Positions 97 through 41,113 of a stretch of 41,329 nucleotides of DNA are shown here, in pieces. The translations under genes and the position numbers were made by a program. Position 1 is the first letter of the stretch. Each line of letters opens with the position of its first letter. The notes below the pieces were generated by a model. It ran no database searches and was not told where the DNA came from. It saw only the letters and a list, made by a program, of their open reading frames with translations. The DNA comes from Chrysochromulina tobinii (taxonomy: Eukaryota > Haptophyta > Prymnesiales > Chrysochromulinaceae). The stretch lies in contig JWZX01001780.1 of NCBI GenBank assembly GCA_001275005.1, positions 1 to 41,329 on the forward strand, in the 5' to 3' direction.

Positions 97-1877
97 ATGG
101 ATTTGCTACGGCCTTCCGCGAAGCGCAGTCGGTGGCTCTTCCTTCCGGCGGCGATGCTTGTCTGCTGCATGCTTGGCCACGTCACTGCCGAGCTGTCGTC
201 GCCGCAATGGAACGAGGGCTGCCTCTGCGAGCTCAAGCCGACGCCCGCGGCTTCATCCTCGAGCCTCGCAATGCACACGATCTTTGGCCAGCGCTACTTC
301 CGCAAGAATGGGCGCGTCTCGCGGTTCTGCCCGTGCTCTGTCGAGACTGTGCAGCAGCTCAACCAAGAGCTTATCGCGCCGCTCCTCTTCCCGCTGCTGA
401 ACAGCACGTACTTCCGCTACGTCAAGCTCTCGCTCGAGCGGACATGCCCATTCTGGGACGACGGGCACGGCATGTGCGCGCTGCGCGACTGCGCCGTCGA
501 AGCGTGCAGCGCGGACGAGGAGCGGCGGCTGGACCAGTGCGGTGAGGAGCTCGGCGACGACCAGCTCGGGGATGTGCAGCGCACGGACGCCGCGACGCTC
601 GGCGAGCAAGCTCCGTCCTGGGACCTTGCTGCTTCCCGGTGGACAGACCAGCTCGAAGTGGACAACGACGGCGGCGCCGAGTACGTGGATCTCGTGGACA
701 ACCCGGAGCAGTACACGGGGTACAGCGCCGCCGCGGGCGCCTCGCGCATCTGGGACGAGCTCCACACGCACAACTCGTTCGCTGAGCACGGCGCCGACGA
801 TGCGCGCCACGCGGCGCCGATGGCGGTGGAGCAGCGGCTATTCGCGCGGCTGCTCTCGGGTCTGCATGCATCGGTCTCGTCGCACATTGCGATCCACTAC
901 CTGCTCGACCGGCGCAACGGCACCTGGGGGCTCGAGCTCGACGAGTACGCTAGACGGTTAGGTGAGCACTTAATAGACGGTTACGCTAGTCGAGTACCGG
1001 TCGCCGGAGAGGCTGCATCCCTCGATGATGCTCGATTGCCTTTGATTGCCGCTGATGATGAGTGATCATGCTTGGTTAGGTAACCACCCGGAGAGGCTGC
1101 ACCATCTGCACCTGACGTACCTGACGGTCCTGCGGGCGCTCGAGCTGGCGGCGTCGCACCTGAGCGAGCGCTTTGCGTTCTCGACAGGCATGCCCCGAGA
1201 GGACGCGCGAGTCGCGCGCGAGGTGCGCGCCCTCCTCGCCTCCCGCCCCGAGTGGCCTCTCACGTTTGAGGAGCAACGCGCCTTCGTGGGCGTACGATGC
1301 GCCTCGACGCTGGTCGCCTCGGCCGAGCAGATGTCCAAATTAGGCAGCTCGGACGACACAAATACTGGATGCCATCACGGCGCCGAGGAGGAGCTGCTCG
1401 CTGCGCGCACGCAACTGCTCGGCGAGTACCGCTCGCGACTGCAGAACATCTCGAAGCTCATGGACTGTGTGGGGTGCGGCCGCTGCCGGCTGTGGGGAAA
1501 GCTGCAGGTGCACGGTCTCGCGACGGCGCTCTCGCCCAGCATACCAGTGCTCACCACGGCGCGTGCTCCCTGCTCCACAGGTGCACGGTCTCGCGACGGC
1601 GCTCCGTATCCTATACGCTCCCCACCGTCAGCTTGTGCTTCACTCGCTGCAGAGGCCCGACGTCGTCGCGCTGTTCAACCTCCTCGGCCGTCTTGCCCAC
1701 TCGGTCGAGGTGGCGCGCGTCGTCGTGCCGCTGCTCGGCGGGTCTCCGCATTCGAAGTGCTCGCCGCGCGGGTGCAAGGCGTCCGAGTGGATCTCGGGCG
1801 ATGGCGACGATGAGACCAGCACGGTCCACCCCGATGGGCTTTTTGGCGCCGCCATGGGCGCCTCTCTCTTTAGTTGA
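97..1877 (+). CDS. ERO1: ERO1-type endoplasmic reticulum oxidoreductin (3 exons)
   Basis: Exons 97-961, 1080-1507 and 1581-1877 join to a 529-residue protein. ERO1 is an FAD enzyme that reoxidises protein disulfide isomerase in the ER lumen and passes electrons to oxygen. Residues 1-31 look like a signal peptide or anchor (basic start, then a hydrophobic run). C127 and C132 in the stretch CALRDC match the shuttle cysteine pair. The exon 1/2 junction restores the family block around RLGNHPERL. C418, C421 and C424 in CVGCGRC form the active CxxCxxC, followed by RLWGKLQ, and the last exon carries the conserved LQRPDVVALFNLLGRL block. Length and motif order fit the family. The first intron is phase 1, the second phase 0. 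Both introns contain copied exon sequence. The stop codon lies in a 38-bp tandem repeat. Identification is firm; the exact 5' end is the first in-frame ATG. Confidence 0.93.
962..1079 (+). mobile_element. Introner-like intron, family A, in ERO1 (118 bp)
   Basis: The intron starts GTGAGCAC and ends TTGGTTAG, and splicing restores an ERO1 motif. Its first part resembles the downstream exon in two blocks: GGTTAGGT at the junction, and CGGAGAGGCTGCA at about 1007-1019 against 1090-1102. The blocks are separated by an extra ~33-bp segment. The rest is rich in TGATGATG and TGATTGCC words as in the other family-A introns. It reads as an older, rearranged copy. Confidence 0.6.
1508..1580 (+). mobile_element. 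Introner-like intron, family B, in ERO1 (73 bp, perfect 27-bp duplication)
   Basis: Phase 0 intron. The 27 bases at 1505-1531 are repeated without mismatch at 1578-1604, offset by exactly the intron length. The first copy provides the 5' splice site (CAG|GTGCAC) and the second is the downstream exon. Between them lies a core holding CCAGTGCTCACCACGGCGCG, shared with introns elsewhere in this window, and a CCACAG acceptor. Confidence 0.9.
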
Positions 1878-5348: not shown

Positions 5349-6333
5349 GCTCAAGGAGCACGTGGAGCAGGCATCGAGCATACGAACCATTTGTAAACGA
5401 GGAGCAAAAATTGCTGCTGCAAATAAGGGTGGCGCGCGCCCTATTCAGAGAGGCGGTCGGAGCGGTGCGTGTGCTGCTCCCCCCCCTCAAGCTCGGGGCG
5501 GTTCTATGAATAAGTCATCGTAGGAATGATGAATAAGCCATCCTACCAGTACTGTTTCCCCTCTGCAATCACTCAGTTTGTAATCAGGGTATGTGAGGAA
5601 GGGGTGCAAATCCATATCCCTCCCCTACCCCCTCGTGGGTAAATCACTCAGTTTGTAATCAGGGTATGTGAGGAAGGGGTGCAAATCCAGATATTAATCC
5701 CTCCCCTTACCCCTACCCCCTCGTGGGTAAATCACTCAGTTTGTAATCAGGGTATGAGGAAGGGGTGCAAATCCAGATATTAATCCCTCCCCTACCCCCT
5801 CGTGGGTAAATCACTCAGTTTGTAATCAGGGTATGAGGAAGGGGTGCAAATCCAGATATTAATCGATATTATTAATCCCTCCCCTTACCGCCTACCCCCT
5901 TGGGTAAAACAGTCTCCGACGCGTGGGTCGCGGGCTTGCTTTTGCCCGCGTGAGAGAGCGTGGCCTGCGGTGTTGACCGACCCGCAAGCAATGTTACCGG
6001 TAGCTGATTGACAGACCAATCTGTCTCGAACGAAACGCTATTCACGCGAGCTCTTTCTATTTCCTCCCCTGTACCCATTCTCGATTCTGCAGAGCTTGGC
6101 GGTGGGATGCGCGACCCGTGGCCAATAACGGATGAAATACGCATGTTCTCATGAACCTCATCGGTCCATAGCTTGTGGCGAGATGCCTCCGAGAGGAGCC
6201 GTAAGTGCCGGTTTGATGATCATTGTGCCGTGAGGCTTGGGATCTGCTGAATTCATGTAAATCTCGCCTTGCCTCGCTGTTGAAGGCTGTTGTTCGGAGA
6301 GCTACCCTTGCTTTGCTTTTCAGGTAGGGATTC
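5349..6333. other. Intergenic region between convergent genes
   Basis: Convergent gap between the GT61-GMD fusion and the minus-strand gene at 6334. The middle is a tandem repeat (5567-5907). I see no gene or structured RNA in the rest. Confidence 0.5.
5567..5907. repeat. Tandem repeat, four units of 75-87 bp
   Basis: Units begin at about 5567, 5642, 5729 and 5809 with AATCACTCAGTTTGTAATCA, followed by GGGTATG, AGGAAGGGGTGCAAATCC and a C-rich CCCTCCCCTACCCCCTCG. Units differ by a TGTG insertion and an AGATATTAAT insertion. The last ends in a degenerate copy. This is intergenic minisatellite-like DNA. Confidence 0.92.
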
Positions 6334-7555: not shown

Positions 7556-7876
7556 ATGCAGTTTCTCCACTTGGGCTTGGGCGGTTGGTCAATGACGTCC
7601 AAAAATGCAAGATCGGGCGGTGGATCCGCAGCCAAAGGGGGAGCAAGGGGCGGCAAGGCGTCCGGTATTGGCAAGGCGGCTGGGTCTGCAGAGCGCGGAG
7701 GCGGAAGCTGGAATGCTCATGGGTCTGCCGCAATGAAGGCAAAGGGAGCCAAGACGCTGTGCCTCTACGTGCTGCTGCCACTTATGCTTTTAGCTTTTGG
7801 CATCGCTGTCATCACCGCCTACACGATGCCCCCGTTGCCAATGATGAAGAAGCGCCCGAAAATCCCAACCTATTGA
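7556..7876 (+). CDS. Small one-pass membrane protein, possibly the first exon of a longer gene
   Basis: 106 residues from an ATG at 7556. The first ~60 residues are Gly/Ala/Ser/Lys-rich, followed by a strong membrane segment (ALCLYVLLPLMLLAFGIAVITAY region) and a short basic Pro-rich tail ending at 7876. Downstream a second open stretch to 8240, in another frame, contains VIGMRCGHGSVGQGM and CRRWC and could be a later exon, but I cannot place a convincing donor. No family is recognised. Confidence 0.4.
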   Translation: MQFLHLGLGGWSMTSKNARSGGGSAAKGGARGGKASGIGKAAGSAERGGGSWNAHGSAAMKAKGAKTLCLYVLLPLMLLAFGIAVITAYTMPPLPMMKKRPKIPTY

Positions 7877-8240
7877 AAGGTCGGCTTGTCGTCATCTCGG
7901 CAGAGTCGGGCACAGCCGGGCGCCACTCTTCACACGATGTTCTCCGCTGCGTCGGCAGTGTTGCTCCGCCGCGCCACAATCTTGCGTCGAAAGCGCGGCA
8001 CGCTACGAGCCGGCAGCCTCATCGTGTGTGCCAGACACCACTGGCGGCATCGTCATCGGCATGAGATGTGGCCACGGGAGCGTTGGGCAGGGCATGCAGA
8101 GCGCCGACTGCCGCCGATGGTGCCTCCAATTGATGCTGACGGAGCGCAAGCGCGGCTTTTCGGCCATGTATCCCGACGCCAAGGCCGCACTCGGCGGCGA
8201 CGCGACGAAGATGGTCGATCTGTGCCTCACGATGGGCTGA

Positions 8241-8634: not shown

Positions 8635-11600
8635 TCATCCGCGGGGACTGCCGCTCGGCGGCCTCGGGATCGCATAATGACCATCACCGGTAGCCGCCGC
8701 CCGCACCAGCGACGCCGGCGGCCCACCGGCCACGCCGCTAGGCGGCGTCCAAACGCGCTCCATCTTATGTGGAATGAGCCCAGTGGCTACTTGGCCAGAG
8801 GGGCGCGCGGGCATGAGTGAGCCCGTGGAGCGCCGTCCCGGCGTGGGGGGACGACCGAGCGCGAGCGGCGTGTTGAGCGCATTCTCGAGCGGGGTACGCG
8901 GGCGTGCCGAGGAGGCGGGCGGCGCGAGCGGCGAGGTCGCGAGCGCGGACCTCGGCGCGAGGGGCGTCGTGGTGAGGGCGGCGATCTTGGAGTTTGGCAG
9001 AGGCGCAGGGTCTGCAAGCGTGTAGATCAGGCTGTTGAGCGCCGAGGGCGTCAGCGCGGCCGACCTTGCCGTCGAGCCCACGACGGCGCCACCTGCACCA
9101 CTTGCTGGCGACGTAAGAGGCAGCGGCAGCCTTCCCGAGGCATGGAGCTTCGACATGGGGTCGGTGAGCGTTGTGACCGTCGCGGCGCGAGGCGGTACGC
9201 GCGGCACGGAGGCGGAGGGGCGCAGCCCTCGTCGAGGTGTATCGCTTTCGGCCGCTCGCATGTGCCGCTCGAGCATCCCTGCATCGGGCAGCGAGGGCCT
9301 CGCGCTCCGCTCGCGCCTCCGCCGCCTCGCGCAGGCTCTTGTGGGACAACTCAATCGCAGCCTGCGTCGCGGCAGCCGCCTCGGCGGCCGCGGTCTTGGC
9401 GCGGAGACGCAGCTCGTCAGGGTCGATCCCGGCATGCCCACGCGCCGTCTCGAGCGCCTCGTCGGCGTTCTTGGCGCGCGCCTGCTCGAGATAGAGCTGC
9501 TCGCGAAGCTTGGCCTCGGTCTCTGCGGCCTGCGCGATCTCCCACCGAGCTCGCTGCAGCTCGGCACGGAGCTTGTCGGCCACGTCCTTGGACTGCTGTG
9601 CTTCGGCCACCTCTCGCTGCACGTACGCGTCGAGCTCGTTCATCTTGAGGTACGCTTCGCGCGCCGTCATCACGAGACTCCCCTCTTGCTTGCGCAGCGC
9701 AGCGACCGACTCGCTCGCCTGCGAGAGCGCCGTGCTGAGCAGTTGCGTCTTCTCCATCTCGTCGTCGAGCTTGTTCGAGATCGCATCGCGCTCCTCGAGC
9801 GCCTTGTCGACGGCCTTGCGGCTCGCCTGCTCGGTCGCGACGCCCAAGACGACGCGTCAGCTCGCCATCAGTTTCCATCAGGGCCACTCATAGGCAATCA
9901 GAGGTCATCAGCTCACCTGCTCGGTAGCGACGCTCTCGCAGCGCACGTCCTCGGCATCGGCCTCCGCGTCACGCAGAGCCTTTCTCCGCAGGCCGAGCGT
10001 AACCGTCAGGCGCGAACACTGCCAGCGCAGCCGCGCGCGTGGTACCGAGCGTTGCAAGCGGGCCGCCATATCCTCCGCCGAGTCTTGCAGCAGCGCGAGC
10101 GCGCGTACGGTGTCTGCATGCACGGCACGCGTCTCATCGAGCGCGGCGCTCTTCTCTGCCATGAGCCGCTGCAGCCTCAAGACTTCCTGCATCACATCCG
10201 TCAGCGTGGGCGCGCGCTCGGTGGTGAGCACTTGCATGCAAGGCAGGCCATCAGCATGCAATCAACGTACCTGCATCACATCCGTCAGCGTGAGCGCGCG
10301 CTCGAGCTCGTCGGCCCTCGCCTGAAGCGCCTTCAGCTCGGCTTGCAGTTTGGCCGTCGCCTTCTCGAGCTTCGCCTTCTCGAGCTTCATGAAGACATTC
10401 TCACTGGTGAGAGCGGTGTTCTTCACGAGAAGGTCCGCCTTCTCCTTGAGCGCCCGCTTGAGCAGCATGTCCAGATTCGTCTTCTTGTGCAGCTGGTCCT
10501 CGAGATCCAGCTGCACCTGCATCGCCTTCTCCTTCTCGCGCCGCACTCGCTCCCTGTAGATGATCTCGACGTGCTTCGCAGAGTATTCCGAGTCGGTTTC
10601 ACGCAGCATCGAACCCGCGGCCTCGTCGATGGCTTTGTTGTCCGCCGACGTGGCCGCGATCCCGAGCAGCTTGTACAGCCTCATCGCGAGCAGCCCTTGG
10701 CTGCTGCTGCTGCTCCCGCCACCGCCACCGCTATCCTTGTCCTTGCTGCCGCTGCTGCCGCTGCTGTCCTTGCCACCCTTGCCGCCACCCTTGCCGCCGC
10801 CCTTGAATGAGCCGCCCTTGAATGAGCCGTCCTTGGCGCCGCTAGGCTCATTCAGCTCGCTCAAGTCGAGGTTGAGCATGCCGATGACGCCCCCCGAAGG
10901 ACCACCCACGACGTTGGCGGGCAGCGGGTGCCCCGAGAGCACCTCGTACTCACCCACAAAGTCTCCTGGCTGCGCGGTCTTCTTGTGTGCAAAGCCCTGC
11001 TCGACCGAGCCGTGAAGCACGATGCCAAAGTGCCCAAGCGTATGCTCACGCAGCATGATGGTCTGCCCGGCATGGAACTGGAGGATACGCATCCCGTCGA
11101 AGAGCATGCTCACCTCTTCCGCCGACAGCCCACGCTTCTCGAGCGCTGCCCGCGCCTTGTCGAAACGCGACTGCTTAGCGTCGGTGGCGCCGGCCCCGGC
11201 GCCGGCGCCTCCTCGGAAGCTCCCGACTGCCATGGCGAGGCGCAGCACCGCCTCAGAGGTTCGCGGGATGATCTCCTGGATCTGCTCCATCTTGCGCACG
11301 GCGGCGCGTCCCATGGCGCGCACCAGCGTCGTCGCGGTCGTCGCCGACTTTTCGAACAGTCGAGGCATGCTCCCAAACTGCACAGCCGCAACGGTGCCGG
11401 CTGAGATGCCGATCATCGAGGCGCCGCGCTTGCCGCCGCGGAAGAAGGCCATTTCGCCGACTATTCGTCCAGGCGTCAGCGTGGCGAGCACGTGCGACCC
11501 GTGCCGCACCTCGAGCTGGCCGCCGAGCAGCAACCCAAACCACGAGGCGTCCTCGCCTTGCGTGACAATCTCCTGGCCCTCGGAGAAGTCGATAAAGTCC

Positions 11601-11925: not shown

Positions 11926-14289
11926 ATGCCCTCGCAGTCCTCGCAGCCCGACCCGCCGCCGGCGGCGGCGCCCATGCGGCTCAACTTTGGTACGGGCAAC
12001 GCCTCGCCTCGCGCCGCCGCCCTGCTTCGCGTGCCGATGCTCTCGGGCTCCAACCAGCACGGCGCAGTCCGTGTCCACGAGACGAGCTCAAAGAAGAAGA
12101 AGCACCTCTCCGCGTGGGCTGTCTTCAAGATGCTGCCAAAGGAAGTGTACATCGTCCTGCTCATCGACCTGCTCAACTCGTACCGCTCTTTCGGCTTCCG
12201 CTCCGTCCAGTACATCTACCTCGTCAACGAGTTTGGCGTCTCCGATCTGGACGCAGGCAAATTGCTCGGCGTGCAGGCGTGGCTCATGGTGGTCTTCGGC
12301 ATGCTCGGTGCGATGCTCGTGGACTCGTGGGGCGTGCGCAACACCGCCATCACCGCCCTATCGGTCGCCGCCGTCAGCCGCGGCCTGCTCGCCTTTGGAC
12401 AGGAGCGTAACACCATGGTCTTCGCACTGATCGCGCTCGCGCCTTTCGGCGAGGCGGTTCTCTCGACCGGCATCTACACGGTGGCGCTTAAGAAGCTGAC
12501 GACGCCCACGACGCGCGGCCTCGCCTTCGGCGTCCAGTATGGCGTCTTCAACCTCGCGGGCGCCCTCGCCGATGTGGCCGCCGACACGTTGCGTAAGTCG
12601 GACATTATGCTGCCGCGCTGGCTGCCTTGGCTCGGCGGTACGTACTGGTCGGGCCTGCGCGTGCACGTGTTCTTCACGTGGCTGGCGGTGCTCGCCGCGC
12701 TCGCCGTCTCCGTCGCGTGCCTGTACGATACCGTCCTCGTCCCTCTCGATGAGGACGAGCGCGAGGCTGCCAAGGGCTCAGCCTCGCCCGGCCCTGTCAC
12801 TTCCCCACTGCTCGCTGAGCTTCGTCATTCCGCCAACGCGGCGGAGCGTGCTCGCGGGTACGCGGTGCGCATCGCGCCCAAGACGGCGGCCGCGCAGCCG
12901 CCGCCGCTGCCAACGGCCAGCGAAAGTGAGGACGAGGACGAGGACGATCAGGATGAGGCCTCCAACTACGAGGCTTTCGAAGAGCGCAGCAGCGCCGCCG
13001 CCAGCGGCGGCAGCAAGGGCGGCGGCGGCGGTGCCGGCGCCGCGCCTCAGCGACAGCGGCGGCGGCGGCGAGCGACGGCGCTCACGGCGGCGCGTCGGCT
13101 CGTCGCGTCATGGCTGCGCCTCGCCCAGGAGCACGCGAGCAGCGCGGGCAAGTCGTTGCTCGAGCTACTCGGGATGCGAGCCTTCTGGCGCGCGCTCTGG
13201 CTCTCGTGCTGCCTGCTCTTTGTGTCCAAGCAGGTGCTTGCCTGTGCTTGCCTGTGCTTGCCTGCGAGTACCTGTGATTACCTGTGGTTACCTATGGTTG
13301 CCTGTGATTGCCTGTGCTTCTTTGTGCCCACTGAGTGCCACTGATCGCCACTGATCGCCACCGATTGCACCCGAGCAGTGGGGAGATATGGACCAGCTGC
13401 TGCCGCCCTTTTTGGAGCGTAACTACGGTGAGGACGTGCCCATCTTCTTAATCCACTCGTTGAACATGTGGATTGGCATGTTCGGCCCGTCGCTCGCGGC
13501 CGCGCTCACCATGCACCTCGAGGCGTTCGAGGTGATGCTGCCTGGATTGTGGGTGATGGCGCTCTCGCCTGCGTGGCTCGCCTTCGACCCGAGCGTAGAA
13601 GCAGTCGTGTGCTGGATTGTCTTCCTCTCGCTCGGCGAAGTGCTCTGGTCGCCGCGCCTCTCCGCGTGGATCGCGTCGGTGCGTCTCTGATGGCCGATGC
13701 TGAGCTCTGATTGCGTCCCTCATCTGATTGTCGCTCTGAGTGCGCCTGATGACCTTCGATTGCCTCCCTCATCAGGTGGCGCCCGAAGGACGGGAGGGTG
13801 CCTTCCTCGCGCTGCTCTCAATGAAGAGCCTCATCACCACCATCCCGTCGACCGCGCTTAACGGCTGGATGAACGCGGTATTCATCGCCCAACTGCCCTA
13901 CCTGCCGTCTGATCGCTGCTGATGACCTCTGATTAACATTGATGACCTCTGATGGTCCCCCTCATCAGGTGCTCAACCCCAACTGCCCTAGCTGCCGCGA
14001 CGAGCGTACCGGCCACTTCTGCTCTGAGCTTGTGCGGCTCAACGGCACCTTTGACGGGTGCAGTCCTCCCGGGCTCGGGATCCATCACGCGTGCGTGGGC
14101 GACGAGCATAGCGGCTCGATGGTGGCTCGTCGGTACGCGGACGGGAGCGGTCTCGAATGCCCCTCGACTTGCCAGCAGTGCCCGGGATGGGAGGGCGACG
14201 CGAAGCTGATGTGGACGATCGTGCTGCTCTCTTCCATCTCAAGCCCTGTGATGGTCCAGCTCTCGCTCAAGTACCTGCGCGACAGCTGA
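11926..14289 (+). CDS. Major facilitator-like multipass transporter (4 exons)
   Basis: Exons 11926-13233, 13379-13678, 13776-13877 and 13969-14289, all introns phase 0, 676 residues. After a disordered N-terminus with a KKKK patch there are about six membrane segments (from VYIVLLIDLLNSYRSFGF to HVFFTWLAVLAALAVSVACL). A long acidic, Gly- and Arg-rich central loop follows, then further membrane segments in the later exons (SLGEVLWSPRLSAWIASV, EGREGAFLALLSMKSLI). The two-bundle layout with a long central loop suggests MFS, and the GEVLWSPR/EGREGAF blocks are typical of an uncharacterised protist group. The last exon has a Cys-rich loop (NPNCPSCRDERTGHFC to CPSTCQQCPGW) before the final membrane segment. 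Substrate is unknown. The ATG at 11926 is the first in frame. Confidence 0.75.
13234..13378 (+). mobile_element. Family-A-like intron 1 of the transporter (145 bp)
   Basis: GTGCTTGCCTG to CCCGAGCAG, phase 0. The 5' half is a tandem of CCTGTGCTTG and CCTGTGATTA words, the 3' half a tandem of GCCACTGATC, close to the GTGCCACCGA words of the GMD intron. No clear exon copy is left, so membership in the family rests on the internal words only. Confidence 0.55.
13679..13775 (+). mobile_element. Family-A intron 2 of the transporter (97 bp)
   Basis: GTGCGTCTCTGATGG to CCTCCCTCATCAG, phase 0. It contains TGATGACCTTCGATTGCCTC, shared with the TTLL and CHD introns. The first ~15 bases are only weakly like the downstream exon (GTGGCGCCCGAAGG), so any duplication is eroded. 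Confidence 0.65.
13878..13968 (+). mobile_element. Introner-like family-A intron 3 of the transporter (91 bp)
   Basis: Phase 0. The intron opens with a diverged copy (13878-13906) of the downstream exon (13969-13996): the words CAACTGCCCTA and CTGCC are shared in register. It continues TGATGACCTCTGAT twice and ends CCCCCTCATCAG. Ignoring the intron gives a false stop soon after the copied segment. Confidence 0.85.
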
Positions 14290-15642: not shown

Positions 15643-18210
15643 CTACAGCTCCAACTTCACAAATCCACTCCGGCCCTTCACCGCATCTAGCACCGCTTTT
15701 TCCCCTGCGTCTCCCATCATGTCATTGGCCGAGATGTCCAGTTCGGTCAGGACCGCATTGACCTTGAGCACCTCCGCGATCGCCTTGGCACCGTCAACGC
15801 CGATGTTGTTGTCTTTGAGCGACAGCGTGGTCAAGACCGCGTTGACCTTCAGCGCCTCCGCGATCGCGATGGCACCCTCATCCCCGATGGTCGAGTTGAA
15901 AAAGGAGTTGTACCCGAGGTTGAGGGTGGTCAAGACCGCGTTGACCTTCAGCGCCTCCGCGATCGCCTTGGCACCCTCGTCCCCGATGCTGTTGGCTCCG
16001 AGGTTGAGGGTGGTCATCACCACGTTGACCTTCAGCGCCTCCGCGATCGCGATGGCACCCTGTGGACCGATTTGGTTGTCCCAGAGGCTCAGCTCGGTCA
16101 GGACGGCGCTGAACTTAATCAGCTCGGCAAGCACGATGCCCTCGGTCGACCCTAGGCTTGACCCTAGGCAGTTCAAGCTCAGGTTGAGCTCTGTCAGCTT
16201 GTCCTCGCGCAGCTCCTTGATCGGCACCCCAGAGAGCACCTTGAGCGACAAGCTGCCCAATGCTGCCGCCGCAAGCTGCTGCGCCGCCTCTCCGACAATG
16301 TTGCGGTTGTTGGCGACAGATAGATTTTTCATCACCGCGTTGACCTTCAGCGCCTCCGCGATTGCGATGGCTCCCGCACCCCCGATCCTGTTGCCGTACA
16401 ACTCCAGCTTGGTCAGGACCGCGTTGACCTTCAGCGCCTCCGCGATCGCCTTGGCACCGTCGTCGCCGATGGAGTTGGCCCAGAGGTCCACTGAGGTCAA
16501 TACCGCGTTGACCTTCAGCGCCTCCGCGATCGCCTTGGCACCCTCAACCCCGATGGAGTTGTACCCGAGGTTGAGGGTGGTCAAGACCGCGTTGACCTTC
16601 AGCGCCTCCGCGATCGCCTTGGCACCATCGTCACCGATGGAGTTGAACCGGAGGTCCACCGAGGTCAACCCCGCCATCAACTTCAGGTCCGACACGATCA
16701 GGATTGTGTCGGCGTCTTCGAGGCCCTCGTCCAAGAAGTTGGCCTCCGTCTGGTCGCGCGTCATGCCCGAGAGCATGATACCCTTCTCCGCGCCGATCTT
16801 GGCAAGCATCGTGGCTGACTCAATGTTGAGCCCCTTCTTGAGCACATCGACCTTGGCGCCACAGTCCAGGAGCGCCCGCGCCACCTCTTGCTTGTTCTCC
16901 CTGATCGCATAGTCCAGAGCGCTCACCCCATGATCGTCCCGGCAGGTAACGTCCGCCCCGCGCTCGAGGAGCATTGTGACGACTGCAGCATGCCCTCCGT
17001 GCGCCGCGGCCATGAGCGCAGTCATGCCGCGGTCGTTGGCATGGTCGATAACCTCCGGCGTGTTGTCGAGGAGCGCTCGAAGCTCGTCGATCCGCCCAAA
17101 CTGCGCCGCTTGCACGTGCGGTACAGCCTCGAGCATGCCTCCCACTGACGGCTCCGCGGTCGGGAAGGGCCACAGCCGAATCTCGCTGTCGGCGAGATTC
17201 CGCGCACAGAGGCGCAAGGCCTCCTCCCGCAAGGCCTCCTTTCGCTTGGACGCGATCACCACCGCGAGCTTCGGCGCCTCGGCCTCCTCATCCGTCTGCG
17301 CCGCCTCGCTCGCTACCGGCTGCTGCCCGAGCTTGACTAGCCTCGCCTTCTCCTTGCGCTTCAGACGGCGCTTTGCGCTCTTGCTCAGACCCTCCGTCGA
17401 GGGCGTGCCACCGCCGGCGCCACCCGCCGCCGCCGCCGCCGCCGCCGTGCGCTTCCCAAACGCGCGCTGCAACACCCCGGCGACCTGGCGCCATCGGAGC
17501 CGCCGATGCCATTGGTTCACGACGGTTCTCGGCGGAAAGTATCCACCGTGCACCGTGCGGCAGTGAGGGTGCGCATCGCGGCCGCAGGGCTGAAAGCACA
17601 GCCAGCAGAACGCCACGTCGCAGCTGCTGCACTTCATCGCGATGCAACCGTCTGGATCCGGGTCGCAGAACACCTCGCAAGATGGGCAGCCGAGGTTCAG
17701 GGCCTCGTGGAGCTCTGTCTGTATCGACTCGGGGGTGCACGGCACTTTTCCCCCGCCCGGCGTCTCCGTCGTCTCCGGCGTCTCCGACGTCTCCGGCGTC
17801 TCCATCGTCTCGAGGTAGAGCCGCAGCGCATCTCCAAAGAGGAGGGGCTCGACCATGCTGCGGCCAAAGGGGAACGCCTGCTGGTGGGCGCCGAGGCAGT
17901 CGAGGGCGCCATTTGAGCTGCGCAACTTTGCCGAGCCAGCGAGGCTGCAGATGTACCTTTGAAGGCATGCCGAGCAGATTAGGTGGCCCTCGGGGCAGGC
18001 GATTCCGCGGAGCGTGCTGACCTCCTCGAGGCAGATGAGGCACAGTGCTCGCGTGGCGGCCGCTCCATCGTGCGACAGCGTGACCTCCTCTCCGTCTCGC
18101 GCTCGCACGCAGATTTGCTCATCATCACGTGTGACCTTCATCGCCGCGGGCGCCTCTTCCTGCTCCTCGGCCGGCGATCCAGCGACGATCGTCTTGCCCG
18201 AGAGGCTCAT
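15643..18210 (-). CDS. RING/IBR-like zinc domain, ankyrin and leucine-rich repeat protein
   Basis: Intronless, 855 residues from the ATG at 18210. Residues ~55-125 hold a RING-like start (CLICLEE, CPEGHLICSACLQRYI). Residues ~175-225 are an IBR-like Cys/His cluster (CPSCEVFCDPDPDGCIAMKC, CDVAFCWLC), as in RBR-type ubiquitin ligases, though a full RING1-IBR-RING2 order is not evident. A Lys-rich segment leads to ankyrin repeats (~370-470; GMTALMAAAHGGHAAVV, GVSALDYAIRENKQEVA). The C-terminal ~360 residues are about eleven 28-residue ribonuclease-inhibitor-type LRRs with the recurring AIAEALKVNAVLT. The likely role is a ubiquitin ligase whose ankyrin/LRR part selects targets, possibly a sensor. 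There is no NACHT or other NTPase, so it is not an NLR. Confidence 0.83.
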   Translation of the reverse strand: MSLSGKTIVAGSPAEEQEEAPAAMKVTRDDEQICVRARDGEEVTLSHDGAAATRALCLICLEEVSTLRGIACPEGHLICSACLQRYICSLAGSAKLRSSNGALDCLGAHQQAFPFGRSMVEPLLFGDALRLYLETMETPETSETPETTETPGGGKVPCTPESIQTELHEALNLGCPSCEVFCDPDPDGCIAMKCSSCDVAFCWLCFQPCGRDAHPHCRTVHGGYFPPRTVVNQWHRRLRWRQVAGVLQRAFGKRTAAAAAAAGGAGGGTPSTEGLSKSAKRRLKRKEKARLVKLGQQPVASEAAQTDEEAEAPKLAVVIASKRKEALREEALRLCARNLADSEIRLWPFPTAEPSVGGMLEAVPHVQAAQFGRIDELRALLDNTPEVIDHANDRGMTALMAAAHGGHAAVVTMLLERGADVTCRDDHGVSALDYAIRENKQEVARALLDCGAKVDVLKKGLNIESATMLAKIGAEKGIMLSGMTRDQTEANFLDEGLEDADTILIVSDLKLMAGLTSVDLRFNSIGDDGAKAIAEALKVNAVLTTLNLGYNSIGVEGAKAIAEALKVNAVLTSVDLWANSIGDDGAKAIAEALKVNAVLTKLELYGNRIGGAGAIAIAEALKVNAVMKNLSVANNRNIVGEAAQQLAAAALGSLSLKVLSGVPIKELREDKLTELNLSLNCLGSSLGSTEGIVLAELIKFSAVLTELSLWDNQIGPQGAIAIAEALKVNVVMTTLNLGANSIGDEGAKAIAEALKVNAVLTTLNLGYNSFFNSTIGDEGAIAIAEALKVNAVLTTLSLKDNNIGVDGAKAIAEVLKVNAVLTELDISANDMMGDAGEKAVLDAVKGRSGFVKLEL
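15719..16680 (-). repeat. 84-bp repeat units encoding the LRR array
   Basis: Within the coding region, near-identical 84-bp units recur, each containing GCGATCGCGGAGGCGCTGAA and GTCAACGCGG on the minus strand. Units differ mainly at the solvent-exposed positions after the LxxLxLxxN core. Two units in the middle (~16100-16330) are much more diverged. Confidence 0.9.
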
Positions 18211-26028: not shown

Positions 26029-26937
26029 CTATAGCCGCGGGTATTCAATGGACAACACCGTGCTCAGTGAAAGCCCGACGCTACCGGCCCCGCCGGATGT
26101 TGTTCCATCGAGGCCAACTAGGCGCATGTGCCATTGCCGTTCGCCGTGGCTCGGCTCGGGTTGGGGTTCAGGACGCGGCGGCGGCGGTGCGGGCGCCAGC
26201 GCTGGCGGGGTGGGGCGCGGCGGGAAAGATGCACTTCGGTAGCTCACGCCGCATGCACGGCTCCCAAACACATCGCTCTGATTCACAGCGATCGTGCCCC
26301 ATCCGCTGTGCACGGGTCGTGCGACGAATGCTCGCCGAGCACTGGATCGCCGACGCGGCGCAGCAAGGCCAGGATTGCCGCCAGCCTTTGCACGGAGGGG
26401 CGTTGTCTGATCCATACGATTGTGCTTCACATAGGCTGCTGGGCTCACACAGTGACGGCCATCTGTACGCTCGGCGTGCCAGTGTGGGTTCGTGTGCGAA
26501 CCACCAGCTTCCCGACCCGTGTCCGCCATCTCAATCTCTTCCATTTCATCAGCATCGGCTGTCGAAGTCACGACAAGGGGCAACTGGTTCACTCCTTTGC
26601 CCGCGGGGTCGAACCGGTACCAAAGTCCCTTGTACTGCAGCCCAATCGCGGGTCTGATAGAGCTTGACGGCATCTGAAGGCGGCGGGCAACTGGTATGCT
26701 TCGAGTTGGTGGTCGGCTGGGCGTTCTCATGACGGTGGCAGGTGCTTTTCGGGGTTCATCGGTCAGGGTAGCTGGTTGCCATGAATGGCGGAGGTCCCTA
26801 TGTAAGCCCCATTGTACGTACGTGCCTTCGACTCGGCCTAGCAGAGGTGGTATTGGGTCTGCAGCACGAATGGGCTTCTTAGCGAGCGTGGCAGACGGAG
26901 CCTCAGCGACTCGGACGATTGGAGGGTCGGACTCCAT
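26029..26937 (-). CDS. Hypothetical protein with Pro-rich C-terminus
   Basis: 302 residues from the ATG at 26937, intronless. Short motifs such as IGLQYKGLWYRFDPAGKGVN and an acidic DADEMEEIEMAD stretch sit in an otherwise basic, Pro/Arg-rich protein; the end is a PAPPPPRPEPQPEP run. I recognise no domain. Antisense frames on the plus strand are less protein-like. The ATG lies about 70 bp from the divergent TTLL gene. It could be a disordered regulatory protein; being a chance frame is possible. Confidence 0.45.
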   Translation of the reverse strand: MESDPPIVRVAEAPSATLAKKPIRAADPIPPLLGRVEGTYVQWGLHRDLRHSWQPATLTDEPRKAPATVMRTPSRPPTRSIPVARRLQMPSSSIRPAIGLQYKGLWYRFDPAGKGVNQLPLVVTSTADADEMEEIEMADTGREAGGSHTNPHWHAERTDGRHCVSPAAYVKHNRMDQTTPLRAKAGGNPGLAAPRRRSSARRAFVARPVHSGWGTIAVNQSDVFGSRACGVSYRSASFPPRPTPPALAPAPPPPRPEPQPEPSHGERQWHMRLVGLDGTTSGGAGSVGLSLSTVLSIEYPRL

Positions 26938-27009
26938 TTACCGGTACATGTTCTCCCGGCGTCTCGTTACCGTTCAGCGGAAAATGGGTGTGATGTGTCC
27001 CGTGTTGTT

Positions 27010-29444
27010 ATGATGTGTCTCGTGTGTGCACCGGCTCCCAACGGTGTTTTTGCACGAGGTCAGTACGGGTTCCGGGAACTTTGTCTCAAGTGCTACGGGT
27101 ACATGGACGACCGGCTGGGTGTGACCCGCTCCCGGCAAACCGCCCGCGCGGTCATCGCTCGCGTCAATCCGGCCAAGGGCATGACGTTCGACGCCTCAAT
27201 GTGCAAGTACCGGGCCGTGCCGGCGGTGGCCGCTGCGCTCGGCTATACGGTGTTGACTGCGGAGGATGAGCGGGATCCCAATGCGCCGCCGGGCTGGAAC
27301 CTCTTCTGGACAGACCTTTCGGTCAGCCACCAGCGCGTTGCTGCGCTGCTCCCGCTGCAGAAAGTCAATCATTTCGCGGACATGACGACCTTGTGCAACA
27401 AGGCAACGTGCGCCAGCGTACTCAAGCGCGTGAGCCGCTCCTTCCCGCTCGAGTACAACTTCTACCCGCGGAGCTGGAAGCTGCCCAAGGAGGCGGCGGC
27501 GCTCCGCAAGCTCATGCTCAGCCCTGAGGCGCCGCGCGTGCTCATTGTCAAGCCCAACCGCGGTTGTCAGGGCGTCGACATCTCCATCTGCTGCACGAAC
27601 GACGAGCTCGACACAGCGCGTCAGGAGATGGGCCAGCAGTGCGTGGCGCAGGAGTACGTGGACAAGCCGCTGCTGCTCGACGGGTACAAGTTCGACCTGC
27701 GCATCTACGTGTGCGTCACGTGCTGCTCGCCCCTGCGCGTGCACTTGTATCGCGAGGGCATCGCGCGCCTGTGCACCGAAAAGTACGAGGCGCCCTCGGC
27801 GGGAGGACCGGCCATGATGGCGCCGCCGGCTGCCGCTGCGAGCCAATCTCCGCGTAGCTCGGCCAGTCGGCCAATGTCGGCGATCTCGGCCGCCAGGGCG
27901 GCGGGCAGGGTGGCTGCCAAGGCGACTGGTAAGGCGGACGCCAAGGGCAGTGCCAGCAGCAGCAGCGGCAGTGGCGCGAGCAACAGCAGAAATGAAAGCG
28001 GCTCGTCAACGGTCGCCCAGGCGGGGATGGAGGGAGTGTCCCCGTCAGGCAGCACCGCCGCGGGTGCCCCGGGAGCCGCAGCGTCGGATGGCGCGAGCTC
28101 GAGCGGCGCAGGCGTGCGCGCGCCCAAGACGGCGTCCAAGGTGACGGCGGCGGCGGCGGCGACTGACTGGCGCTACCGGCATCTGACGAACTATGCGATC
28201 AACAAGACGCATCCCGACTTCGTTGTGGGTGGTGAGGACGGCTCCTCGAAGCGGCTGCTCACCGAGCTGCTCGACACGCTCCGCCGCGACGGCTTCGACG
28301 TGGACATGCTCTGGGGGGAAGTACAGCAGCTGGTGGTCAAGACGCTGATCGCCGTGCAGCCGCACATAGCGCATTCGTATACGAGCTGTCGGCCCGCGAC
28401 GGACACGCACCCGTTCTCGTGCTTCGAGCTCCTGGGCCTCGACCTGCTCATTGATGAGAGTGGGCGCCCGTGGCTGCTCGAGGTGAACCACTCGCCCTCG
28501 CTCGAGCGCTGTGTGCTGATGACCGATGATGACCACTGATGACCAATGATTGCTTCCCTCATCAGGTGAACCACTCGCCCTCGCTCGCGACCGACACGCC
28601 CCTCGACCGCGAGCTCAAATCTCGTCTGCTCTCGGATACGATTCGACTCTGCTCCTTCTCGGCCGCCGAGGCGCGCTTGGTAGCACGCGCGGCGGAGCGG
28701 CGCGACGCGGCGCCCGCCGCGATCCCGAAGCTGCGCCCCATCGCCGAGCCGGGCTCCTCGGAGCGCTCACGGCGGCTCAGTGCTGACGGCGGCATCTCGA
28801 CGCTGCGTGCACGCCTAGAGGTCGCGCGTGAGCGTTCGAGGAGCGCTACGAGCGCTACGAGCGGCTTCAGCTCGGTCGCGGCGTCCTTTGGCTTCGGCGC
28901 GCGCGGGCTGGAAACACGACTCGGGATGCCCGGCGTCAAGCAGCAGCTCGTGCAGCAAGGCCTCGCGGAGCGCCGCCAGCAAGCAGAGCTGACCCAGGCG
29001 GAGCTGCTACGGTTGCGGGAAGAATATGAGGCGGCCAATTCGAGCTCATTCGAGCTCGTCTTCCCGGCGCCACATGAGAAGCTCCAGTCTCTCTATGAGA
29101 TGCTGCTCAACGCGTCGCTGCGCGCGTACATCGAGGAGTCCCCCGTCAACTTCAACGGCGGTGCGCGCGTGCCCATCCCGCCGCTGCTGCCACCCGACGC
29201 TGGTGCCGACTGGTGGTCGATGATCAAGCTCGGGCGCGTGGGCGAGCGCATCCTGCAGATGGGCAGTGACGCACCCAGCGCCATCGCGCGCTCGGCACAG
29301 CGCGACGCGGTCGCTTCGCGTACGGCGCGTCCGGGGGGGGAGCGCGAGCACTGCCGACCGACGGGCGCGCCGCCGGCCGACGAGGAGGACGGCGTCGACG
29401 GCGACGACGCCTCCGCTGGCCACTGTGTGACCTCGGAGATGTGA
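27010..29444 (+). CDS. Tubulin tyrosine ligase-like (TTLL) glutamylase/glycylase (2 exons)
   Basis: Exons 27010-28482 and 28566-29444, phase 0, 783 residues. TTLL enzymes add glutamate or glycine chains to tubulin in cilia and the cytoskeleton, using ATP. Visible blocks in order: GWNLFWTDLSVSHQRV, LQKVNHFADMTTLCNK, FPLEYNFYPRSWKLP, the ATP-grasp VKPNRGCQGVDI (~182), AQEYVDKPLLLDGYKFDLRIYV, LYREGIARLCTEKYEAPS, HLTNYAINKTHPDF, CFELLGLDLLIDESGRPWLLE|VNHSPSLATDTPLD. An Ala/Ser/Gly-rich insert of ~125 residues splits the domain between TEKYEAPS and the HLTNYAINK block. The C-terminal ~280 residues are charged and helical. The ATG at 27010 is the first in frame; one at 27103 (MDDRLGV) may be the real start, because 27021-27055 resembles the promoter-side repeat of the ART gene. 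Confidence 0.9.
28483..28565 (+). mobile_element. Introner-like intron, family A, in TTLL (83 bp, perfect 24-bp duplication)
   Basis: The 24 bases at 28481-28504 recur exactly at 28564-28587, an offset equal to the intron length. Both copies contain AGGTGAACC; splicing uses the AG|GT of each. Between them is a core with four TGATGACC/TGATGACCA words and TGATTGCTTCCCTCATCAG. Without splicing the second copy would be out of frame, and the protein motif LLEVNHSPSLATD appears only after removal. Confidence 0.95.
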
Positions 29445-39318: not shown

Positions 39319-40332
39319 AAGTTGACACTAAGTTGACACGGGGGCGGGGTCTCTGACTCTCTGTCGAGTGCCGAGTGCCTCGGCCCCGCGAGCCGTGCAG
39401 CGTGTTCGGTACGGACGTACGGTAGACGGTGTACGGCTAGTACGGGCGCCCCGCGCGCACCGCACACGACAATCAGCACCGGGATACGATACAGCTTACT
39501 AGCAATCACCGGTCCGCGCGTGGCGTGTCGCGGGCGTGAACTGATCGCGGGCGTGATCGCCAGCCGTGTATTCCCCGCCGAGCCGCTGAATCACCGCTCG
39601 CTCGCTACCGCGCGCCGCCAGATGAAGCGAAGTGAAATTGGTACATTAACCATCATGGTTCGACGAGTCCCCGTTATACCGGTCGATCGCGGGACGCCGT
39701 AATCATGGTGATCGGAACGATCGTCCGTCCGGGTATTCGTCGGCGCGGCGAAGCGTGGACGCCAGGACGGTCCGCGGCGTCCACCGGCGAGTTCGCACGG
39801 AGCTGGGCCGGGTAAATCGTTCGATGAGCGCGTCACCGCGTCTATTTTTACGCGCGCCCGACCGCACTACGAGTACTAATTTCCGCGCGCCTCGCCCGGC
39901 CGCACGTGTTACTCGAAAGCGATCGTACACCAACGAGAGACCGCTGCCCATTTAATAGCCCGCCCGCGCCGCACGCGCACGACTGTGTGCGCGGCGAGTT
40001 GGCGTCATGAAGCGCATGCTGCAGCTCCCGTTCGCACGGGGATCCCGCTCCGCGGCTAAAGCGATGCGTGGCCCGTGTGCTCGTGCCCTATCCACCGGTG
40101 CCGTTAGGCCAGGTCATCTGTGAAGGTCATCTGTGAAGGTCATCTGTGAAGGGCATCCGCTTCACAGGCGCAAGGACCTGCGGCGGACCGCTACCTGGAC
40201 CTCTGCTCCATCCCCAGCTCCTCCTGGGACGTCTTCGGGGCGCCGACTTAGGCGCTTACCGGCGCTCGTGGCAGCTCCTGGGCTTCCGCTGCCCCGCCCT
40301 GCTTTGCTCATACGCCGTCGATTCGTCGCACC
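39319..40332. other. Gap without a supported gene
   Basis: Convergent region between the ART and bromodomain genes. 40112-40150 holds three 13-bp copies of GGTCATCTGTGAA. After it, an acceptor-like CTTCACAG at ~40166 precedes a short frame reading DRYLDLCSIPSSSWDVFGAPT that ends near 40250. It could be the last exon of an unrecognised gene, but I cannot join it to anything. Confidence 0.35.
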
Positions 40333-41113
40333 TCATGGCGCACCCCCTGTGAGTGAGATGGTGGCTGCAAGCAGCGAGCGCACGTGCATGTCGAGCCGGA
40401 TGAAGGTCTTGGGCTCGAGCGCGTCCACGTCAATCTTGATTTCGCGCCCGTCGGCGCACGTCTCGACCGCATGCGACGAGAACGCCTCGGCGAGCCGCCC
40501 GATCTGCACTCGCTGGTCGTCGCTCAGCTTGACGACGTTGTCAAGAAGCTGGTGGCGCATCTGCGGCGTGATGAAGAAGGGCGCTCCGCTCTGCACAGGC
40601 ACGTTGCCCACACCACGAATGGACAGAGGCGGCGCGCGCGTCACGCCGGACGGCTTGCGTGCGAGGCCAGGAGGACGAGATTCGGCCTCCGAGAACTTCT
40701 TGGACGCAATCGAGCGCATCTCGTCAATGTACTTTTTGATCCACGAGTTCGGGCCGTTGTAGGTGAGTGCGTTCTGCCAGACGAGGTCGACGTCCGCGCG
40801 CAGCGCCGCCACAGTCTCGTACTCTAGGCTCTCGAGCTTTCGAAGGATGGTGCTCAAATCCATCGGATGCTCGATCACCTGTGGGGAAGGGGGGGGCGCC
40901 GTGGTGAGCACTTGCATGCAGGGCCGGTGGAGCTCAAATCCATCGGATGCTCGATCACCTCGAGGTAGTTCCACAACTGCAATTTCTGCCAGTCGACCGG
41001 GTCCTTGAAGTATTTGGCCGACGGCTGCTGACGCAAGAGCCTGATCACCTTGTGGTACCTGCTCGCTACCTCCTCGCGCCCCTCGAGGTACCTGGCACCG
41101 CCGCCGCCGCCGC

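Follow-up and report, generated by a model that had tools for sequence, protein, structure and literature searches.

The origin of spliceosomal introns is an old open question because the scar left by the birth of an intron is usually lost. How, then, does an intron come to have the same stretch of its host gene at both of its edges? This question is raised by a contig of Chrysochromulina tobinii (41,329 nt, here called the window; contig C794 of our search set) that includes a gene of the tubulin-tyrosine-ligase-like (TTLL) type, with TTLL6/13 names among its relatives. The 24-nt sequence AGGTGAACCACTCGCCCTCGCTCG occurs twice in this gene, at 28481–28504 and 28564–28587, with 24 of 24 positions identical and no mismatches. 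The offset between the copies, 83 nt, is the length of the GT..AG interval 28483–28565, and the preliminary description of this DNA, which had reported a perfect exon copy displaced by one intron length, is exact on this point. The bases bordering the two copies differ (G and C before, A and C after), and none of 40 sequences simulated for the whole window under a Markov-1 model had an exact repeat of more than 13 nt at offsets of 45–260. We conclude, with a probability of roughly 0.8, that the TTLL intron arose by the recent insertion of a copy of a short, introner-like and non-autonomous element that makes introns and has spread through this haptophyte genome.

The TTLL intron and its core

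Excision of the 83-nt interval gives the junction LLE|VNHSPSL (LLE|VNHSPSLATDTPLD) at residue 104 of the joined stretch, within a Pfam TTL match covering residues 2 to 133, and two in-frame stops appear if it is retained. Both splice ends had been attributed to the exon copies. This holds for the 5' splice site; the 3' splice site is instead the element's own recurring end, TGATTGCTTCCCTCATCAG, of which only the final AG is common to the 24-nt match. The last four bases of the core, CATC, together with the AG of copy 2 make up this element end, and the CTRAY-like sequence within it is presumably a branch site. The insert of about 59 bp carries repeated words, as had been noted: TGATGACC recurs at 10-nt spacing, and TGATGACCNNTGATGACC has nine matches in the window at up to two mismatches, compared with an average of 0.03 in shuffled sequences. 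The TTLL core belongs to a subfamily with AGCGCTGTGTGC ahead of the repeats, and its siblings (in L009, L010, L011 and L013) begin at differing points of the AGCGCTGTGTGC stretch, as if truncated at their 5' ends. Features of this gene and further cases in the window are listed in Table 1.

Table 1. Positions of the TTLL intron, its parts and other duplication-bearing introns in the window
Feature	Positions	Strand	Basis
Open frame with TTLL exon 1; runs on into the intron and stops there; start codon somewhere inside	26842–28482	+	Reading frame
TTLL intron, 83 nt, phase 0, GT..AG	28483–28565	+	Predicted: frame and Pfam TTL restored on removal, two stops if retained
Target duplication, copy 1; its stretch from 28483 onwards opens the intron and gives the 5' splice site GTGAAC	28481–28504	+	24/24 identical to copy 2
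Inserted core outside the 24-nt match: AGCGCTGTGTGC (short 5' part, shared by the subfamily), then TGATGACC words at 10-nt spacing	28505–28563	+	Sequence
Conserved family A 3' end TGATTGCTTCCCTCATCAG: CTRAY-like branch site (presumed), pyrimidines, 3' splice site	28547–28565	+	Genome-wide recurrence
Target duplication, copy 2; first two bases AG close the intron, remainder is exon	28564–28587	+	Repeat comparison
TTLL exon 2, through stop codon	28566–29444	+	Reading frame
27-nt perfect duplication with CAG|GT (1505–1531, 1578–1604); core with GTGCTCACCACGGCGC	1505–1604	+	Repeat comparison
Older-looking: 23-nt duplication, 2 mismatches, A-type core	9821–9933	-	Repeat comparison
Family B case; core GTACGTTGATTGC..GCTCACCAC; exon copy of 34–35 nt, 1 mismatch, gives the 3' splice site	10186–10304	-	Repeat comparison
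Older-looking: 20-nt duplication, 1 mismatch, A-type core ending CCCCCTCATCAG; copy start diverged	13888–13997	+	Repeat comparison
29-nt perfect duplication starting AGGT; B-type core ending CCCCAC+AG; 5' site borrowed, as in the A arrangement	40852–40960	-	Repeat comparison

A genome-wide family with duplicated flanks

The genome searched comprises 53.15 Mb in 2253 contigs. There are 1624 + 1617 matches to TGATGACCNNTGATGACC (3241, reversed control 1) and 922 to the family A 3' end, TGATTGCYTCCCTCATCAG (reversed control 0). GT follows directly at 617 of these 922 ends (21-mer, 53 Mb; reversed control 0), compared with about 6% expected from exon composition (0.33 x 0.17). A second 5' end, GGTACGTTGATTGC, occurs 88 times genome-wide (control 0). 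A scan of viral contigs with the 19-mer family A end gave no matches. Near-identical introns are therefore present at many unrelated gene positions, in varied genes and domains, with 617 exact ends against none in the control.

We examined the flanks in 40 stretches that represent 46 of the first 62 listed places among the 617 and were chosen with the flanks ignored; the remaining 16 places were clustered or already covered. The start of the exon was copied 36–400 nt upstream, with a score of at least 10, at 25 of 46 ends, whereas swapped flanks gave 3/898. Five of these 25 lie in tandem series or whole-intron repeats by eye (L030, L035, one in L048 and two in L080), and 20/46 remain when they are set aside. 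The other 21 sampled ends have no duplication and may be old copies or have another origin. In a second set of 234,826 bp, made up of the window and 20 loci picked for core matches, 25 of 49 A ends have at least nine exact duplicated bases compared with 5/244 in the control; seven of the 25 are directly behind another CATCAG, and two of the five positive controls are full 60-nt matches. Both further copies of the core and duplicated flanks at intron edges had been named in the preliminary description as checks on its proposal of an intron-generating system; the copies number in the hundreds, duplicated flanks accompany about half of those sampled, and together they support the proposal.

Family words are present in 36 of 43 splice-compatible duplications and in 17% of random 60-mers. 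The count includes both strands and overlapping views, many cores exceed 60 nt, and core matches were the reason for choosing 20 of the 21 sources. One of the seven duplications without family words, at window position 15913, is LRR-like. Coding LRR-like repeats with an 84-nt period (window 15747–16779 and others) surface in a naive repeat scan and were excluded as introns.

Anatomy of family A insertions

For a larger case set, 115 of 161 ends scored at least 12, and we removed 57 of the 115 in which the copy contained CATCAG or exceeded 50 nt, or the core was shorter than 18 nt, keeping 58. The copy starts within 3 nt of the intron end (offsets −3 to 0) in 45 of the 58. By eye, nine of the 13 others have indels, substitutions or a longer match at the copy start, two look spurious (L025, L094), and two have 4 and 2 unmatched bases (L053 and L108 respectively). 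Offsets of 3 or 9 bases among the 58 (L046, L082, L024 and window 13968) reflect indels or substitutions in the copy, again by eye.

Agreement between the copies falls away on one side: in the 45 cases they agree at the first base past CATCAG in all 45, at −1 (G) in 39, at −2 in 19, at −3 in 11 and at −4 in two. This fixed side is G|GT, mostly GTG or GTA, with A at −2 in only 42% of the 45. The duplications are 12–45 nt long (median 22) and 23 of them are still perfect; the cores are 29–141 nt long (median 64). The lengths of duplication and core are anti-correlated (rho −0.56, p 7e-5, n = 45), as expected if total intron length is constrained near 70–100 nt. On the variable side we saw no sequence preference by eye. 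Microhomology at this junction was scored in 15 cores that start within the 10-nt repeat, as the overlap of the duplication end with the expected repeat, and averages 1.27 nt compared with 0.38 nt by chance (p = 0.002). One end of the core thus varies from copy to copy, and the ends form no constant pair. No A core among the 58, read by eye, starts with GT, and a full-length intron RNA as donor is therefore unsupported.

Family A ends that lack a following GT can also carry duplications abutting CATCAG, and these are clear at four (L097, L099, L106 and L107) of 36 ends examined, many of them in tandem arrays. The fixed end therefore looks like a property of the element and not of splicing alone. 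AG is located just ahead of the copy at three of the four sites, and the fixed boundary could come partly from selection for exact splicing. At L097 (368–469, plus strand) a 33-nt duplication with one mismatch is followed by its own GT; the intron may start there, after the duplicate, and would then add 11 codons to the protein.

A mirror-image family

Family B introns have the opposite arrangement: the intron opens with the element (GTACGTTGATTGC..TGCATGCAAGTGCTCACCACGGCGC) and closes in a copy of the upstream exon, such that the borrowed site is the 3' splice site. Duplications are present at 18 of 25 B ends (control 3/470) and, in an enlarged set of loci, at 30 of 51 (control 4/989), the other 21 having none. 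Eight of the 30 are tandem and were set aside, leaving 22 cases with duplications of 10–34 nt. The preliminary description had given 17 to about 50 bp for such duplications, which is close to the 12–45 nt of family A and the 10–34 nt of family B. B targets have T at +2 in 8/22 (p 0.023) and GT in 5/22 (p 0.007), above base composition; at nearby CAG sites the counts are 38/131 and 18/131, and the B targets are not clearly higher. A cutting enzyme specific for AG|GT is thus unsupported.

The two arrangements are not strictly tied to core type. Besides the B-type core at 40852–40960 with a borrowed 5' site, there is an A-type core in the B arrangement in L017. In L024 (7273–7352) a family A core is in antisense orientation, bordered by 15-nt copies that open with AGGT. 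Possibly the element can go in either way round, and the duplicate would then provide both splice sites.

Predicted splicing

With the introns removed, 49 of 62 cases (45 A and 17 B) have reading frames open for at least 25 aa on both sides, compared with 8/62 unspliced. Twenty joined products were chosen by eye from the 62 for looking conserved, and 12 of these have a Pfam domain across the junction. Eleven score above the curated cut-off (TTL, sulfatase, ion channel, beta-galactosidase, P-type ATPase, asparaginase C, exo/endo-phosphatase, PAS, TPR, Omp85 and SbmA/BacA) and one, PDZ, falls below it. The predicted splice sites of duplication-bearing introns are GT/GC..AG.

Intron presence in relatives

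We aligned 10 of 120 listed TTLL relatives, seven of which have sequence across the intron site. The site, LLE|V/INH, is uninterrupted in six of the seven proteins, taken from raw frames or gene models (P0002, P0003, P0004, P0005, P0006 and P0011). The seventh, P0008, has 34 extra residues, starting with V and ending with Q, that can be read as a 102-nt GT..CAG intron lacking an exon copy, and this apparent intron seems to sit at exactly the same codon boundary. The position is therefore perhaps a repeated target, or the intron is older than it appears. The recent gain put forward in the preliminary description thus agrees with six relatives at the protein level and is qualified by P0008. Three further proteins (P0007, P0012 and P0018) end or diverge ahead of the site. 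The tail of P0018, ...LLIDQVRSPLMGLDCL, could be a translated A-type core (such as CCTCTGATGGGCCTTGATTGCCTC) at another position, and that of P0007 may be one too; if these tails are read correctly, related haptophytes would have such introns elsewhere in the TTLL gene.

The SAM50/Omp85 gene (L027), as modelled, has a single intron, which is a family A copy with a 25-nt duplication. P0242 (jgi/ena), a SAM50/Omp85 protein of 477 aa with 98% identity, is continuous across the site, which means that its transcript is spliced there or that it comes from an allele lacking the intron. An HSP90 gene (L109) has an intron with a related core at 1397–1502 that is missing from full-length proteins such as P0127 (jgi/lgn contigs). 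Over a 450-aa stretch the HSP90 exon is 96% identical to Calcidiscus, 95% to Emiliania, 94% to Tisochrysis and 92% to Phaeocystis, and proteins 100% identical across it come from jgi and ena sources; HSP90 thus puts this genome among the haptophytes. The L109 intron combines A-type words with a B-type core. P0122, which has no differences over the HSP90 stretch searched, continues into a similar core by way of another 5' part, and this suggests that the intron varies between strains.

Origin of the introns

We propose that the DNA of the alga would be cut on both strands 10–45 nt apart, that a copy of the element with one end complete and the other truncated would be placed in the gap, and that fill-in of the overhangs would duplicate the stretch of exon between the cuts. 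One duplicate would leave with the element by splicing, and the protein would therefore be unchanged. Family A would keep the 3' end of the element (branch site, pyrimidines and CATCAG), with a GT in the duplicate serving as 5' splice site; family B would keep the 5' end (GTACGTTGATTGC) and borrow AG as 3' splice site. The combination of an exact and a ragged end, microhomology at the junction and element-specific cores argues for a copied element and not for random filler. The copy would most likely be made from RNA, with reverse transcription primed at the break, followed in likelihood by DNA-only patching with template switching; we rate RNA-templated copying a little short of an even chance.

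Non-LTR retrotransposons and SINEs, which move by target-primed reverse transcription, have variable-length target duplications and 3'-complete, 5'-truncated copies with microhomology. Family A resembles them in each of these respects, having variable duplications, a fixed 3' end and a ragged 5' end. It differs in that we saw no poly(A) or known tail and found no autonomous partner here, and truncation is not confined to the 5' side, family B being 5'-complete and variable or truncated at its 3' end. Taken by itself, family A would fit target-primed reverse transcription; family B would fit only if copying can start internally or on partly degraded intron RNA. A partner gene, encoding a reverse transcriptase or endonuclease, would be expected to have a transcript ending in TGATTGCCTCCCTCATCAG; the 26 RVT_1 matches in the genome are candidates. 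We also consider, tentatively and as rather unlikely, that excised linear intron RNAs lose part of one side to degradation and are then copied by reverse transcription into staggered breaks, yielding 3'-complete family A and 5'-complete family B copies with the exon duplicate giving the missing splice site. If true, such re-insertion of intron RNA would amount to a self-propagating, RNA-based birth of spliceosomal introns that leaves a readable scar with each new intron.

A DNA-only process is the alternative that we take most seriously, while doubting it on balance. Error-prone repair of a staggered break could switch template by microhomology into an existing intron copy, so that half an intron is pasted in and the target duplicated with no mobile element involved, abundant introns being simply the usual template. 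The symmetry of families A and B, the microhomology at the variable junction and the lack of visible sequence preference at the variable end all agree with this, and break repair with short direct repeats is listed as a route of intron gain in the accessible part of a review (PMC3443670). The duplications of 10–45 nt, however, exceed the short repeats described there, the element end is nearly always exact in the 58 cleaned A cases, and the family words in 36 of 43 duplications, selected and counted as described above, indicate that the templates are not random introns. DNA-only repair explains this element specificity less simply than it does the symmetry.

Cut-and-paste movement of a MITE-like DNA transposon, as proposed for most algal introners, appears improbable here. 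Target duplications, inverted ends or both are given for 59.2% of 130 introner families in the available portion of the aquatic-eukaryote survey (PMC9860276), and a DNA-transposon introner would be expected to have a target duplication of fixed length within 3–9 bp; instead we find 12–45 nt for family A and 10–34 nt for family B, and with one end ragged and cores of 29 to 141 nt, the constant ends that a terminal inverted repeat would need seem to be lacking. Still more improbable is that old introns grew secondarily as minisatellites, the exon-like stretch being a coincidence or a gene-conversion patch. The abundance of 10-nt words (3241 matches), the apparent P0008 intron at the same TTLL position and the tandem amplification of whole introns would fit, but the swapped-flank controls are low, the copy starts at the splice site, repeat growth does not copy exon sequence, and there is a mirror family B. 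Finally, a simple tandem genomic duplication of an AGGT segment, for which AGGT in both TTLL copies and the in vivo support reported in the accessible part of PMC3443670 might speak, can be set aside as scarcely credible, since the 59 nt between the TTLL copies are not exon copy but part of a family that brings its own 3' splice site, and A at −2 is found in only 42% of the G|GT sites.

Relation to known introners

The introns described here behave like introners, but their duplications are longer and more variable than the published 3–9 bp and one of their ends is ragged. In the portion of the aquatic-eukaryote survey available to us (Gozashti et al. 2022, PMC9860276), earlier introners have 3–9 bp repeats and splice sites are recruited in both directions, with the 5'-carried direction and 4-bp duplications in a Chrysochromulina MAG. 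The likeness lies in similar introns in many genes, with one splice site carried and the other taken from the target duplication. The differences are that the duplications here vary over 10–45 nt, that the first (A) or last (B) 10–45 nt of the intron are a unique exon copy, and that the cores, built for the most part of 10-nt words, differ in length. The same portion describes a pipeline that discards families rich in short motifs and asks that similarity start, at each end, no further than five bases into the exon or ten into the intron. Similarity up to both intron ends, which is a survey criterion and not part of the definition of an introner, is absent here because one end is a locus-specific exon copy. 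These introns would therefore probably be missed, judging from the filters, and an intron with a long exon-copy end or a repetitive core would probably fail such filters in general, such that intron birth may be undercounted.

Amoebophrya introner elements, in the part of their description that we cite (Farhat et al. 2021, PMC7789003), are likewise intron families with direct repeats at their boundaries in a marine protist. Their direct repeats are 3–5 nt, their inverted repeats 8–20 nt and their splice sites largely non-canonical, whereas here the sites are GT/GC..AG and there is no constant end pair. Introns attributed to break repair are also flanked by direct repeats, read as filled-in staggered breaks; in the accessible part of the intron-gain review, which treats both tandem duplication and break repair (PMC3443670), these repeats are called short, and here they are long and the inserts belong to one or two families. 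Direct repeats close to splice sites were surveyed in 2025 (PMC11782384), and a genome paper on Diacronema (PMC8379373) also belongs to the background. We found no description of introners with 10–45 nt duplications in our searches of the open-licence literature.

By extrapolation from the 25 of 46 sampled ends to the 617 exact ends, hundreds of introns appear to keep the scar of their birth. Target site, cut spacing, truncation and splice-site recruitment can therefore be read intron by intron, and the divergence between the copies offers a means of dating. Having two mirror-image families in one genome also places limits on the mechanism that no single family could set.

Tandem repeats

Whole introns together with their exon copy seem to be tandemly amplified in L017 (~7870–8120, minus strand), L048, L066 and L105, in units of about 60–83 nt, perhaps via slippage or unequal exchange between direct repeats. 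Similar amplification is apparent in contigs C107, C334 and C337 from the spacing of matches alone. Short tandem repeats have been reported in introns of Emiliania huxleyi. In the window, a tandem repeat present four times (AATCACTCAGTTTGTAATCAGGG..) with spacings of 75, 88 and 79 nt is located at 5567–5898, and the tandem words GTGCTTGCCT (10 nt) and AGGTCATCTGTGA (13 nt), at 13224–13324 and 40111–40157 respectively, may be further intron cores.
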